A DNA stretch of 64,000 nucleotides from assembly GCA_944325195.1 (NCBI GenBank), contig CALUZB010000008.1, forward strand, positions 62,001 through 126,000. The letters are read 5' to 3'. The DNA comes from an uncultured Desulfovibrionaceae bacterium. Lineage in GTDB: Bacteria; Desulfobacterota; Desulfovibrionia; Desulfovibrionales; Desulfovibrionaceae. The notes below the pieces were generated by a model. The model did not search any database. It worked only from the letters and a program-made list of their open reading frames with translations, and was not told the DNA's origin. A program made the translations under genes and the position numbers. Below are positions 4,581 through 48,159 of this stretch, in pieces (the stretch's first letter is position 1; the number at the start of each line of letters is the position of its first letter).

Positions 4581-5405
4581 ATGATTATCGTCTGCCCCAA
4601 GTGCTCTACAAAATTCAACTTGCCCGATGATAAGGTAAGCCCTCTGCGCAAAGCAAAATGCAGTTTTTGCGGCAACATCTTCGCTATGGCCGCCGGAATG
4701 GATGAAGCAGCCTTTGCCCAGCTCCCCGGTCTTGGTTTAACCAACCCCAAAGAAGAAGAAAAGCCTCAAGCAACCCACGGAACAACGCCCGACGCCCCGC
4801 CCCCCCCCGCCCGCAAAAAGCGTGGCAAGATGCTGCCCATCATTTTCGGCGGGCTTCTGGTGTTGCTCATTGCGGCAGGCGCCGCTCTCTACTTTATGGG
4901 AATAATCAGAATCGGCCCGGAAACCGCCCCCGACAACACGGAACTGATCTCCAAAGACGAAAACAACGCCGGCGCTCAAAACGCTACAAATCTGTTGGGA
5001 AATGATGAAGAAATCAAAGACATCATTTTCCAGAACACCAAGCAGTATTTTGTGAACAACGAAAAACTGGGGCAGATTTTTGTTGTTGAGGGCAAAACCA
5101 TCAACAATTACCGCACTCCCAAAGAGCTGATCCGCATTGAAGCCGACCTGTTGGATGAACACGGTACGGTGGTTGCCAGCAAGCAGCAGTTTTGCGGAGT
5201 GACCTTAACGATGTTCCAACTTCAAATCCTTTCTGAAGAGGAAATTGAAAAGGCTTTGAACAACAATATCGAAATTCTGGCCAACAATCTGAATATTCAG
5301 CCGGGGGGCTCCGTTTCGTTTATGACCGTGTTCGTAAATCCGCCGCCCAGTATCAGCACCCTGTTCCTGAAAGTGGTTGACGCCAAAGATTCACCAACTA
5401 ACTAA
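4581..5405 (+). CDS. Zinc-ribbon, single-pass membrane protein (DUF3426-like)
   Basis: 274 residues. The N-terminus is an MJ0042-type zinc ribbon (Cys5, Cys8, then CSFC near 27-30). A proline-rich linker, one transmembrane helix (about 86-108, LPIIFGGLLVLLIAAG) and a C-terminal domain of the DUF3426 type follow. This layout is common in delta- and gammaproteobacteria; function is unknown. The zinc ribbon would be cytoplasmic and the C-terminal domain periplasmic. The start is divergent from pth, with about 250 bp between them. The ribosome site is weak. Confidence 0.8.
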   Translation: MIIVCPKCSTKFNLPDDKVSPLRKAKCSFCGNIFAMAAGMDEAAFAQLPGLGLTNPKEEEKPQATHGTTPDAPPPPARKKRGKMLPIIFGGLLVLLIAAGAALYFMGIIRIGPETAPDNTELISKDENNAGAQNATNLLGNDEEIKDIIFQNTKQYFVNNEKLGQIFVVEGKTINNYRTPKELIRIEADLLDEHGTVVASKQQFCGVTLTMFQLQILSEEEIEKALNNNIEILANNLNIQPGGSVSFMTVFVNPPPSISTLFLKVVDAKDSPTN

Positions 5406-6036
5406 AAGCCGTCCCTGAAACGCATTCCAGGGTCGGGCAGAATCCGCGCGGCGGCAACTCCGCCTGAACACTGCAGCAGCAAAGCCCGGATGTCGCCTTG
5501 CGCTTGGGAAGGGTTTGTATCCACTCCCAAGCTTCCGTCCCGTTTGATACCCCGCCCAAGAGTCGCTCACGATTTTTGTATGTGATGCTGCTGGTAAACT
5601 GTCCGCAAGACGATTTCTGAAATGAGTTTTTGGATGCAGCCCGGTTTAACCGGCTCACCCCTGAAACCATTGACATTTTCCGCTCTTCTCTTTGAATCCA
5701 GCTCGCTTTTTGGTAAGTCCGCCTGAAGCAAATGGGCGTGTTCGGCGACAAAGGCGTTGAAGTGTCCTGAAATCATCAAATTGTTTAATGCAGCCTTTTC
5801 AATGAATTTTCGTTTAAATACGCCAAAACAAGGAATTTTTCGTCTTATATCGCCCTATAACTACAATTATCGCAGGAACAAACAACCCGTATCCCAAAGA
5901 AAATGCAATAATCTTGTATTTTCACTTGACCTTAATGCAATAATAGGGCAATCAATATATTGCTAAGCCGCATGGTCATGAGGGCTGTCCTCACGCCGGG
6001 TTGCGGGATTATTTTATTTTAGTGAGGTTTTATTTC
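5406..6036. other. Intergenic region before the RRM protein gene
   Basis: No gene can be supported. A minus-strand open frame at 5567-5779 (70 codons, beginning MMISGHFNAF) reads protein-like but matches nothing I recognise and overlaps another open frame. AT-rich DNA at 5780-5960 probably holds the promoter of the downstream RRM gene; a possible -10 is TAATAG near 5941. The leader before that gene is long, as is common for cold-inducible RNA-binding proteins. Confidence 0.35.
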
Positions 6037-6303
6037 ATGCCTAAGTCTATTTATGTGGGCAATTTGCCTTGGTCTGCTACTGAAGAACAAATTCAAGGTC
6101 TTTTTCAGCCCTATGGAAACGTTCTTTCCGTAAAACTTATTTCCGATCGTGAAACCGGTAGAGCCAGAGGATTCGGCTTTGTCGAAATGGAAGATCCGGA
6201 AGCCGCCGCTGCTATTGAGGCCTTAGATAATTCCAGTTTCGGAGGCAGAACTCTGCGGGTGAACGAAGCTCGCCCAAAAGAGCCCAAAGCTCCCCGTTTT
6301 TAA
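6037..6303 (+). CDS. RRM-domain RNA-binding protein
   Basis: 88 residues, almost entirely one RNA recognition motif. RNP2 is IYVGNL (residues 4-9) and RNP1 is RGFGFVEM (about 47-54). Bacterial RRM proteins of this size bind single-stranded RNA and are often cold- or stress-induced. The ATG at 6037 is chosen over an upstream TTG at 6001 because the RRM begins at once and GTGAGG lies upstream. A strong terminator follows directly, so the transcript is probably monocistronic. Confidence 0.92.
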   Translation: MPKSIYVGNLPWSATEEQIQGLFQPYGNVLSVKLISDRETGRARGFGFVEMEDPEAAAAIEALDNSSFGGRTLRVNEARPKEPKAPRF

Positions 6304-6313
6304 CGAACCTCAG

Positions 6314-6338
6314 AAGCCCCGCTTGCCGGGGCTTTTTT
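6314..6338 (+). terminator. Intrinsic terminator of the RRM gene
   Basis: AAGCCCCG-cttgc-CGGGGCTT, an 8-bp perfect stem, is followed by a T-run to 6338. It starts 10 bases after the stop codon. Confidence 0.92.
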
Positions 6339-6732
6339 ATACTGATTCAGTTTGCGGCTGATTGCGGAATATATTCCAGACAGCGCCTACAGCCCCGCCC
6401 CTTAAAGGATATATTCCAATAAACAGCAACATTTAATCCCCGCTCTTTCAAGTTCACCCCCCCCTTGAAACATAGCGGACTGCTGCGGTAACTTTTATCC
6501 GTCCCAGCAGTAAATAGCGCTTGCATTGAATTGGAAAAGGAAGTATTAAGCGCGGGCATGCCGCTGACAAAGCGAATTGCATTTTTATCGTGCAAGCCTC
6601 TAGGCAAGCATCGGCTTTAATGCTAAGTTGACTCATGTTGAGGAAGCAGTATCGCATGAGCGGATGATCTAACAAGCATTCGGCGGTCTCAACCCGGCCG
6701 GTTTTCCTGCGACAGCACAGGAGGTTTATTGA
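6339..6732. other. Intergenic region upstream of the SLOG-like gene
   Basis: No gene recognised. It contains two copies of a near-identical palindrome: GGAATATATTCC at 6366-6377 and GGATATATTCC at 6407-6417. Their centres are about 40 bp (four helical turns) apart, so they could be paired operator sites. Confidence 0.4.
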
Positions 6733-7290
6733 ATGATGCTAAATCCCAAAGACTGCATTTTATATAGCGGTGGCGCTACAGGTGCGGAAGCGTTTTTCGG
6801 CGCAACAGCGGAAAGCTATGGAGTTCAGGAAGTGAACTACAGCTTCGACGGCCACCAGGCAGAGCGCAACAGAGGTATTCGTGTGCTTACCTCAGAAGAG
6901 TTGGCCTTAAAAGACGTAAGCCTTGCCTATGTGTCCCGGTTGATGAACCGGGAATATACCCGCGCCCCCCTATTCAGAAAGGTGCTGCAATCCATCTGCT
7001 GGCAGGTATCCAGCGGCGAAGAAATCTTTGTAATCGGAAGCGTTCAGGAAGACGGCACAGTGAAAGGCGGTACCGGCTGGGGAGCGGAGTTCGCTAAAAT
7101 CTGCAACAAGCCCCTGTTTGTGTTTGACCAGGAAAGAGGTATTTGGTTCGCCTGGATGGAAAGCGAATGGGTTGAGGCCGGTCAGCCGCAAATTTCCACC
7201 CGCCACTTCACAGGCACCGGAACCAGGTTCATTACCGATACAGGTAAAAACGCTATTGATGATCTGTTCGCCAGAAGTTTCGGACGCTAG
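6733..7290 (+). CDS. SLOG/Rossmann-type nucleotide-binding protein, unknown function
   Basis: 185 residues. The N-terminal YSGGATGAEAFFG (about 11-23) and the later VKGGTGWGAEFAK (about 115-127) are glycine motifs like those of the SLOG superfamily (DprA, LOG, YpsA), which bind nucleotides or nucleotide-derived ligands. There is no visible catalytic LOG motif (PGGxGTxxE), so it is probably a sensor or binding protein. It has an excellent ribosome site (AGGAGG, 8 bases before ATG) and its own terminator, so it forms a single-gene unit. Confidence 0.65.
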   Translation: MMLNPKDCILYSGGATGAEAFFGATAESYGVQEVNYSFDGHQAERNRGIRVLTSEELALKDVSLAYVSRLMNREYTRAPLFRKVLQSICWQVSSGEEIFVIGSVQEDGTVKGGTGWGAEFAKICNKPLFVFDQERGIWFAWMESEWVEAGQPQISTRHFTGTGTRFITDTGKNAIDDLFARSFGR

Positions 7291-46615: not shown

Positions 46616-46816
46616 TCACTCCGTCACTCTCTTTTTTACAGGGCAGAAAACCTCATCCCAACTGATGCCCTCTCTTTGCATATAGGCATGCAATCTGTCG
46701 GCTTCCGGCCTGAAAAGCATGCGCCCCTTGGCATACGCAGCGTGGCATTTACACACCAGACGCAAAGATACCCCTGCTTCCCTTGCCAAATCACTAACAG
46801 TGCAACATCTTTTCAT
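46616..46816 (-). CDS. Small HTH-like protein of the regulator island
   Basis: 66 residues. CTVSDLAREAGVSLRLVCKC looks like a helix-turn-helix of MerR/AlpA type, followed by a helical tail with two more cysteine or metal-like positions (VFCPVKK). A strong ribosome site AGGGGGAA precedes the ATG. It follows the 65-residue gene by 9 bp on the same strand, so the two form an operon divergent from the 47.1-kb regulator. Function unknown. Confidence 0.55.
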   Translation of the reverse strand: MKRCCTVSDLAREAGVSLRLVCKCHAAYAKGRMLFRPEADRLHAYMQREGISWDEVFCPVKKRVTE

Positions 46817-46825
46817 AGTTTCCCC

Positions 46826-47023
46826 CTAATCATATGCACGCCCACCGGCGCAGTCGATATTAATGATACATGTATCACCCAGGTTGACTTTCAGCTCGTC
46901 TCTTTCAGGATAATGCCCAACACATCTCCCAAGGCCGCCAACTGTGAGCCCCATATAAAGCCAACCGCACAGTTCCGATTGCTTATTGCCGACAATTGAG
47001 TTATTGTCTGATTTAAATTTCAT
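46826..47023 (-). CDS. Small unknown protein of the regulator island
   Basis: 65 residues, GGGAATCTG upstream of ATG. It contains LGDTCIINIDCAGG near the C-terminus and no recognised domain. Upstream gene of a two-gene unit with the HTH-like protein, divergent from the HTH/coiled-coil regulator. The palindrome GACAAT-tgagtt-ATTGTC (46991-47008) lies inside its first codons. Confidence 0.45.
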   Translation of the reverse strand: MKFKSDNNSIVGNKQSELCGWLYMGLTVGGLGRCVGHYPERDELKVNLGDTCIINIDCAGGRAYD

Positions 47024-47078
47024 CAGATTCCCAGTTTACATAATCAATTTCAGTTCGTATGAGTCAGATTTATTTTTA

Positions 47079-47111
47079 CAATTTAAACTTGAATGTGTCA
47101 ATTTAAAATTG
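47079..47111. promoter_or_regulatory. Two tandem operator-like palindromes before the 47.1-kb regulator
   Basis: CAATTTAAACTTG (47079-47091) and CAATTTAAAATTG (47099-47111) are spaced exactly 20 bp start to start, two helical turns. The second lies between a possible -35 TTGAAT (47089-47094) and -10 AATAAC (47112-47117), 17 bp apart. Likely sites for autorepression by the HTH protein. A third copy lies inside the gene. Confidence 0.65.
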
Positions 47112-47127
47112 AATAACGGATTGCCTT

Positions 47128-47604
47128 ATGCCTGTTACCCTGGGTAAGCGACTTGAATTCCTGATCAGGAAAATGAACATAAATCAGAGTGAATTCGCGG
47201 AGTTAAGTGGATTAAAACGGGCTGTAGTTTCCAGTTATACCCGCGATGTGAACCTCCCCCGCGCGGAGACCCTGACCTTATGGGCCAATCAATTTAAAAT
47301 TGATATTCACTGGCTGCTTACCGGCGAGGGAGAACCTTTCCTGGCTCCGCCGGCACCAGAAGCGGCTGCAGTCCAGGCCGGGGCAGAGACCATTGAGCTG
47401 TTGAAAAAAGCGGTAGAAGCACAAGAACGTACCATTGCTTTGCAAGATAAAATTCTGGACGATGAAAAGAAACGCCGAGCCCGTCTGGAAAGAGAACTGG
47501 AGCTTGCCCGGGGCGAAATTGAACGTCTGGAGCAGCAAATAACCACCCTCAATGATCATGAGTTCATGCCCGGACCTGTAAAAACAGACGAAGCTAAAAT
47601 TTAA
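47128..47604 (+). CDS. HTH regulator with C-terminal coiled coil
   Basis: 158 residues. The XRE/CI-type helix-turn-helix is about 6-70 (INQSEFAELSGLKRAVVSSY is the HTH core, ending IHWLLTGEGEPF). It is followed by a coiled coil (about 88-145). No S24 domain, so no self-cleavage. The coiled coil should set its oligomeric state. Palindromic sites lie before and inside the gene. It is followed by a related HTH/coiled-coil gene. Confidence 0.8.
   Translation: MPVTLGKRLEFLIRKMNINQSEFAELSGLKRAVVSSYTRDVNLPRAETLTLWANQFKIDIHWLLTGEGEPFLAPPAPEAAAVQAGAETIELLKKAVEAQERTIALQDKILDDEKKRRARLERELELARGEIERLEQQITTLNDHEFMPGPVKTDEAKI
47290..47302. promoter_or_regulatory. Intragenic third palindrome in the regulator gene
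   Basis: CAATTTAAAATTG, identical to the second upstream site, in the codons for NQFKIDI. With flanks the symmetry extends to ATCAATTTAAAATTGAT. It lies 191 bp from the second upstream site, a distance that could support DNA looping. Confidence 0.6.
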
Positions 47605-47703
47605 ACCCGCCTTCCAGGGAGGAAGCCGATGAGGGAAACCTTTTTCCAAAAATCCGCTGTTGGGCCATACCCGGCAAAAGCGCGACAGCATAGGGGTAAA
47701 AGC

Positions 47704-48159
47704 ATGTTCAAACCGGAAGATCTCACTAAATTCAAGCAGTGGTTGTTTGAAGCCACAGGCCTGGAAAATATGAGTGAACTTGCCCTGGCTATGGGAGTGG
47801 AAGAACTTGAACTCCGGCTGCAGTTCAAATCGGGAGAGTTTCCCCTGACCTGGTTGGTATCGTTGGCAGAGCGGGAGCAGTGCAGTCTGGATCTGATTTT
47901 ATTCGGCCGCTCTTCCGGCAAACCTATGCCGGCAGCGCCTTTGCCCGCCTTTCAACCTAATTGTGACACCGATGTCCCTGCAGCAACGGAGTGGGAGCTA
48001 AATGAGCTGAAAAATCAGATAAAAGCCCTGAAAGCAACTAACGCAGCCCTGGAAGCTCATAACAAACTGCTGGTGGACGCTTTGGCCGACCGTGCAGCCA
48101 GACCGCAAGGCAGCAAGGTCTGGCTGCAGGAAGCCGCAGCAGATTATGGAGAGACCTGA
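47704..48159 (+). CDS. Second HTH (CI-like)/coiled-coil protein
   Basis: 151 residues. FKQWLFEATGLENMSELALAMGV and the following LTWLVSLAEREQCSLDLILFGR fit the N-terminal domain of phage CI-type repressors. A coiled coil follows (about 98-128). The ATG at 47704 has AGGGG upstream and starts directly at the domain; an ATG at 47629 with GGAGGAA would add 25 residues. It parallels the preceding gene in layout, suggesting a paired regulator system or hetero-oligomer. Confidence 0.7.
   Translation: MFKPEDLTKFKQWLFEATGLENMSELALAMGVEELELRLQFKSGEFPLTWLVSLAEREQCSLDLILFGRSSGKPMPAAPLPAFQPNCDTDVPAATEWELNELKNQIKALKATNAALEAHNKLLVDALADRAARPQGSKVWLQEAAADYGET

Follow-up and report, generated by a model that had tools for sequence, protein, structure and literature searches.

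The locus and its genes

The stretch analysed here (the window) comprises 64,000 nucleotides of an uncultured member of the Desulfovibrionaceae. In its last third, a gene coding for a short HTH protein, HTH1, is followed on the same strand by a second one, HTH2, and faces two small open reading frames on the other strand, the whole lying between dxs and an RcnB-like gene. Three short palindromic sites accompany these genes, two of them upstream of HTH1 and one within its coding sequence. The features are as follows.

46616-46816, minus strand: ORF66, the second of the small ORFs, which begins 10 bp past ORF65 and is preceded by AGGGGG
46826-47023, minus strand: ORF65, first small ORF past the divergent promoter candidate, with a GGGA-like ribosome site recognised by eye
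47073-47101, minus strand: divergent promoter candidate, TTGACA-N17-TAAAAA (or N18-AAAAAT), a consensus match
47079-47091, strand not assigned: site 1, operator candidate 1, CAATTTAAACTTG, 5 of 6 arm pairs, filling the spacer of the minus-strand promoter candidate
47082-47109, plus strand: weak promoter candidate, TTTAAA-N16-TAAAAT, only a 9/12 consensus match, over sites 1 and 2
47099-47111, strand not assigned: site 2, operator candidate 2, CAATTTAAAATTG, overlapping the minus-strand -35
47128-47604, plus strand: HTH1, 158 aa, an N-terminal HTH_3/CI-type domain and one long C-terminal helix
47290-47302, strand not assigned: site 3, intragenic exact copy of the 13-mer CAATTTAAAATTG, coding for Q-F-K-I in the conserved region of the HTH domain
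47704-48159, plus strand: HTH2, 151 aa from the ATG at 47704 (the ORF opens at 47629), with a weak Phage_CI_repr match and a leucine-rich tail

HTH1 belongs to the CI/P22 c2/ImmR class of HTH repressors. It matches Pfam HTH_3 (PF01381; E 4.6e-8, 33.4 bits against a curated cut-off of 23) and a transcriptional repressor family in PHROG (2.2e-16), while its best NCBIfam match is DicA (PRK09706; 27.9 bits, below the cut-off of 101), with a weak match to RstR that is also below cut-off. The structural model (mean pLDDT 82, pTM 0.44) places five helices within residues 5-65, then a single 68-residue helix at 77-144. The nearest solved folds found by Foldseek are TP901-1 CI, P22 c2, DdrO, ImmR and 434 domains, and the modelled five-helix domain has the P22 c2/434-like fold, with matches to 1adr, 3jxb, 2or1 and 7t8i. 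In one heptad register 12 of the 18 a/d positions of the tail are hydrophobic, against 2-8 in the others; together with the 68-residue model helix, this pattern supports a long C-terminal helix, in which a first-pass annotation had seen a coiled coil. HTH2 is probably the second gene of the HTH1 operon. Its Phage_CI_repr match (E 0.0083, scanned from 47629) stays below the Pfam cut-off, and its matches in 288 genomes are at the level of the HTH domain only, with at most 38% identity.

On the opposite strand, ORF65 and ORF66 (46616-47023) are adjacent, apparently translationally coupled, and point away from HTH1. No family was found for ORF65 in Pfam, PHROG or NCBIfam and nothing convincing in the same collections for ORF66, which is HTH-like by eye only. 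Relatives are lacking, for ORF65 in 58 other genomes and for ORF66 in viral contigs and 198 further genomes from this family, so that these two ORFs may not be genes. No phage genes came to light around the module: ten other ORFs of the window gave cellular Pfam families or nothing, and dxs/ispA-like neighbours were recognised by eye. Pfam also found no Peptidase_M78 domain, that of the ImmA partner, in HTH2, ORF65, ORF66 or the RcnB-like neighbour.

No orthologue of HTH1 turned up in protein scans of genome contigs and viral contigs or in phages and plasmids, and the best other match in 149 whole genomes (its own included) has 41% identity over the HTH part only. In G001, the sole genome of the same genus, HTH1 has no match and different genes follow dxs in the stretch available, where the junction is incomplete, the other contig ending inside the RcnB-like gene.

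Three palindromic sites

The first-pass annotation had listed three near-identical 13-bp palindromes at 47079, 47099 and 47290. The sequences are exactly there, with the spacings of 20 and 191 bp that it gave, and the intragenic copy is indeed identical to the second upstream site. As to symmetry, its description fits sites 2 and 3, which are perfect, while in site 1 one of the six arm pairs is broken. The palindrome of site 2 extends to 15 bp with its flanks and that of site 3, the longest of the three, to 17 bp (ATCAATTTAAAATTGAT, 47288-47304). From start to start, sites 1 and 2 are 1.9 helical turns apart, sites 2 and 3 18.2 turns, and sites 1 and 3 20.1 turns (211 bp), which is close to an integral spacing. 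A degraded further site, with two mismatches, lies upstream at 47045.

This three-site cluster exceeds chance. Under a Markov model the window is expected to hold 0.0076 exact copies of CAATTTAAAATTG in either orientation, and it holds two; the corresponding figures for CAATTTAAACTTG are 0.0041 and one. In the 2.48-Mb genome the sequence of sites 2 and 3 occurs in two places, both at this locus, that of site 1 in three, and the degenerate form CAANTTNAANTTG in nine, three of which fall inside these 224 bp, a clustering that nine random points reproduced in none of 200,000 placements. Apart from the pair of sites 2 and 3, which enters the list twice, as a 13-mer and as a 15-mer, the window has no perfect palindrome (arms of 6 bp, gap of 0-6) that recurs exactly within 300 bp; in 120 randomised windows there was no such palindrome and copy at all. 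Genome-wide, CAANTTNAANTTG is not in excess (nine places against eight for the reversed control), and a regulon of such sites across the genome was dropped on that ground.

Candidate divergent promoters and similar sites elsewhere

The predicted promoters, a strong match on the minus strand and a weak one on the plus strand, both lie over sites 1 and 2. The minus-strand candidate, which faces ORF65 and ORF66, is the only match to TTGACA-N17-TANNAW in the window, where 0.16 would be expected. It had been proposed that site 2 sits between a -35 and a -10; this is weakly true of the plus strand, the convincing match being the one on the minus strand. If these predictions hold, the asymmetry, with the divergent promoter strong, that of the repressor weak and the operators common to both, is the layout of a CI-type switch, for which lambda and DicA (excerpts of PMC10448788) and Rco (excerpts of PMC4207663) offer comparisons.

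Comparable arrangements were sought by a scan for pairs of CAANTTNAANTTG sites spaced as they are here. Genome contigs yielded seven stretches; viral contigs yielded none with the fixed 7-base gap and six with a variable gap, the 13 stretches including near-duplicates (L088/L092 and L089/L091). Three of the 13 lie directly upstream of an HTH_3 gene (Pfam having been run on two genes of L090 and on genes of L079, L081, L089 and L093), and the other ten showed, by eye, no HTH repressor gene alongside. In L090 the tandem set includes the identical CAATTTAAAATTG, and the HTH_3 gene is followed by a Peptidase_M78 gene, that is, an ImmR/ImmA-like pair. Tandem CAA-N7-TTG sites precede HTH_3 plus Peptidase_S24 in L081 and HTH_3 plus aminotransferase in L079. 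Small as the sample is, it suggests that HTH_3 proteins use tandem CAA-N7-TTG palindromes as a form of operator. At 5879-5931 of the viral stretch L090, upstream of the HTH_3 gene, stand three operator-like sites, of which one carries a mismatch; L079 has, at 5395-6930, an HTH_3-aminotransferase fusion gene preceded immediately by a 33-bp double palindrome.

A probable divergent switch

The explanation that we prefer, with a probability of roughly 65%, is that of an orphan divergent switch akin to CI and DicA, in which a pair of HTH1 dimers on sites 1 and 2 blocks the minus-strand promoter and sets the activity of its own. Dimers of HTH1 would occupy the two sites as an adjacent pair, shutting off the strong promoter of the two small ORFs; at the weak plus-strand promoter HTH1 would either repress its own synthesis or tune it, as happens at lambda PRM. 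Its main job looks like repression of the stronger divergent promoter. The anatomy of the locus gives good support to autoregulation at sites 1 and 2, since a HTH_3/CI-type protein is found with tandem palindromes over divergent promoter candidates and with similar sites elsewhere; autorepression alone, as first put forward, is narrower than what the layout suggests. The protein bound at the promoter sites could instead be HTH2, ORF66 or another factor.

That the sites are no operators at all, rather A/T-rich promoter elements (pieces of UP elements or of -35 boxes) resembling one another by composition, seems to us improbable. Two further genomic copies of CAATTTAAACTTG, at promoter-like places, speak for it, while two identical perfect palindromes and a near-copy, with a spacing of two turns upstream and beside a HTH_3 gene, speak against it, as do the position of the third site inside a coding frame and the comparable sites that precede other HTH_3 genes. 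The first of these genomic copies (G000:C3:100418; L034, 1501-1513) is just upstream of tRNA-Pro(CGG), against an apparent -35; the second (G000:C21:64062; L038, 1501-1513) has two minus-strand TTGACA promoter matches nearby, one of them TTGACA-N18-TATAGT.

The intragenic site

Site 3, as the best palindrome, should bind HTH1 at least as well as sites 1 and 2 do, and it is likely to be bound if these are. What the binding might achieve is a separate matter: site 3 could anchor a loop, it could act as a roadblock to elongation on the messenger of its own gene, or it could be an accident of coding, and we slightly favour the accident over the other two taken together. By this account, to which we give even odds, the conserved F-x-I of HTH_3 repressors, when written in AT-rich codons, happens to spell an operator that has no role. 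The Q-F-K-I of site 3 indeed belongs to a stretch, F-x-I-x-x-x-W-L-L-x-G-E-G, which many of the homologues share. With the protein fixed, resampling of synonymous codons restored the exact site in 5.7% of cases with the codon usage of the window and in 6.6% with that of the gene itself, and came within one mismatch in 30% and 42%, respectively. Some homologues approach it at the aligned position, with GAATTTAATATTG (L005, 2 mismatches), CAATTTAATATAA (L003, 3) and AAATATCGAATTG (L017, 4), and no such operators were found upstream of these three genes; most other rows, in an alignment of 31 of the 34 loci (without L026, L032 and L044, and with the row of L029 in the wrong register), have 5-11 mismatches. 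Against an accident, some 6% is still small, the two extra palindromic end pairs of site 3 are not needed for the 13-bp match, and only 5.6e-5 exact copies of site 2 on either strand would be expected in the gene if the protein were not fixed. The apt probability depends on whether the protein is taken as given; we think the conditional figure of about 6% the fairer one, because homologues come near the site for coding reasons.

It is possible, though we find it rather doubtful, that tetramers of HTH1 tie site 1 or 2 to site 3, closing a loop of about 200 bp that would tighten autorepression, with silent codons selected to that end. An exact copy of the 13-mer that also forms the most complete of the three palindromes, without a comparable repeat in the rest of the window or in its randomised versions, is what such selection might leave, and the Phe codon of site 3 is the only TTT among the five Phe codons of the gene. 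The C-terminal helix of the model also speaks for it, and the distances of 191 and 211 bp, judged from the sequence, would allow looping, the near-integral spacing of sites 1 and 3 in particular. All the same, synonymous choice alone produces the match at the rates just given, the searches gave no orthologue in which codon conservation could be looked for, and in none of 33 homologous loci is a perfect upstream palindrome repeated exactly within the gene. L016 alone shows a weak, A/T-rich case with one mismatch between upstream and intragenic copies; in this comparison starts were taken mechanically as the first ATG, and some upstream stretches are misplaced. Less probable again is a role without looping, with HTH1 on site 3 stopping elongating RNA polymerase, hence negative feedback on HTH1 at high protein level, or else occluding an internal promoter for HTH2. 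LacI does act as a roadblock at O3, yielding truncated lacI transcripts (excerpts of PMC3711431). A candidate for the internal promoter, CTGACC-N17-TAAAAT at 47272-47300, overlaps site 3; it is, however, a bare 9/12 consensus match, and the palindrome itself contains TAAAAT.

Relation to known systems

For the divergent switch that we prefer, one close likeness is DicA/DicC of the cryptic prophage Qin in Escherichia coli, left in the chromosome, where a short CI-type repressor of 135 aa faces a small divergent gene, with operators over both promoters, much as predicted for HTH1; the excerpted account describes no intragenic operator (PMC10448788). HTH1 differs further by its long helical rod, and ORF65 and ORF66 are not recognisable as Cro or DicC. 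ImmR of ICEBs1 has the same HTH fold as HTH1 (7t8i), whereas its Peptidase_M78 partner, ImmA, is absent from the HTH1 locus; ImmR sites are near both promoters (excerpts of PMC4207663). The same excerpts present Rco of plasmid pLS20 as a tetrameric, looping HTH repressor, with overlapping divergent promoters and a weak one of its own; its operators, in contrast, are CAGTGAAA repeats, intergenic and 75 bp apart, and no intragenic site is described there (PMC4207663). The short tetrameric repressor gp33 of BPs works on divergent promoters, with a palindromic operator between the -35 and -10 of PR and a further one lying downstream of the promoter for gp33 itself; these operators, however, are intergenic and 113 bp apart, and the authors think that looping needs help (excerpts of PMC4557955). 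LacI is of another family, unrelated to HTH1. Its operator O3 lies at the far end of lacI. Bound to O3, within the unit transcribed for lacI itself, LacI halts its own mRNA (excerpts of PMC3711431).

Significance

An orphan CI/DicA-like switch is ordinary, and LacI already provides an example of an operator placed inside the transcription unit of its repressor; LacI O3, Rco and lambda all exist as precedents. The sole unusual possibility is an operator within the codons of the DNA-binding domain of the repressor. A phrase search of the literature, of limited coverage, returned no intragenic operators, and we make no claim that they are unreported. In its boldest form, which we regard as unlikely, a rod-shaped repressor would tie the operators at its promoter to another in its own HTH codons (F-x-I), so that protein and operator would co-evolve in the same nucleotides.

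Should site 3 be functional, one set of bases would spell a conserved piece of the repressor's DNA-binding domain and at the same time serve this repressor as an operator, a case of dual coding. If it is idle, it is a warning that the AT-rich F-x-I codons of HTH_3 repressors yield operator-like palindromes. Either way, the locus is probably one more orphan CI-like switch, lodged between dxs and the RcnB-like gene.
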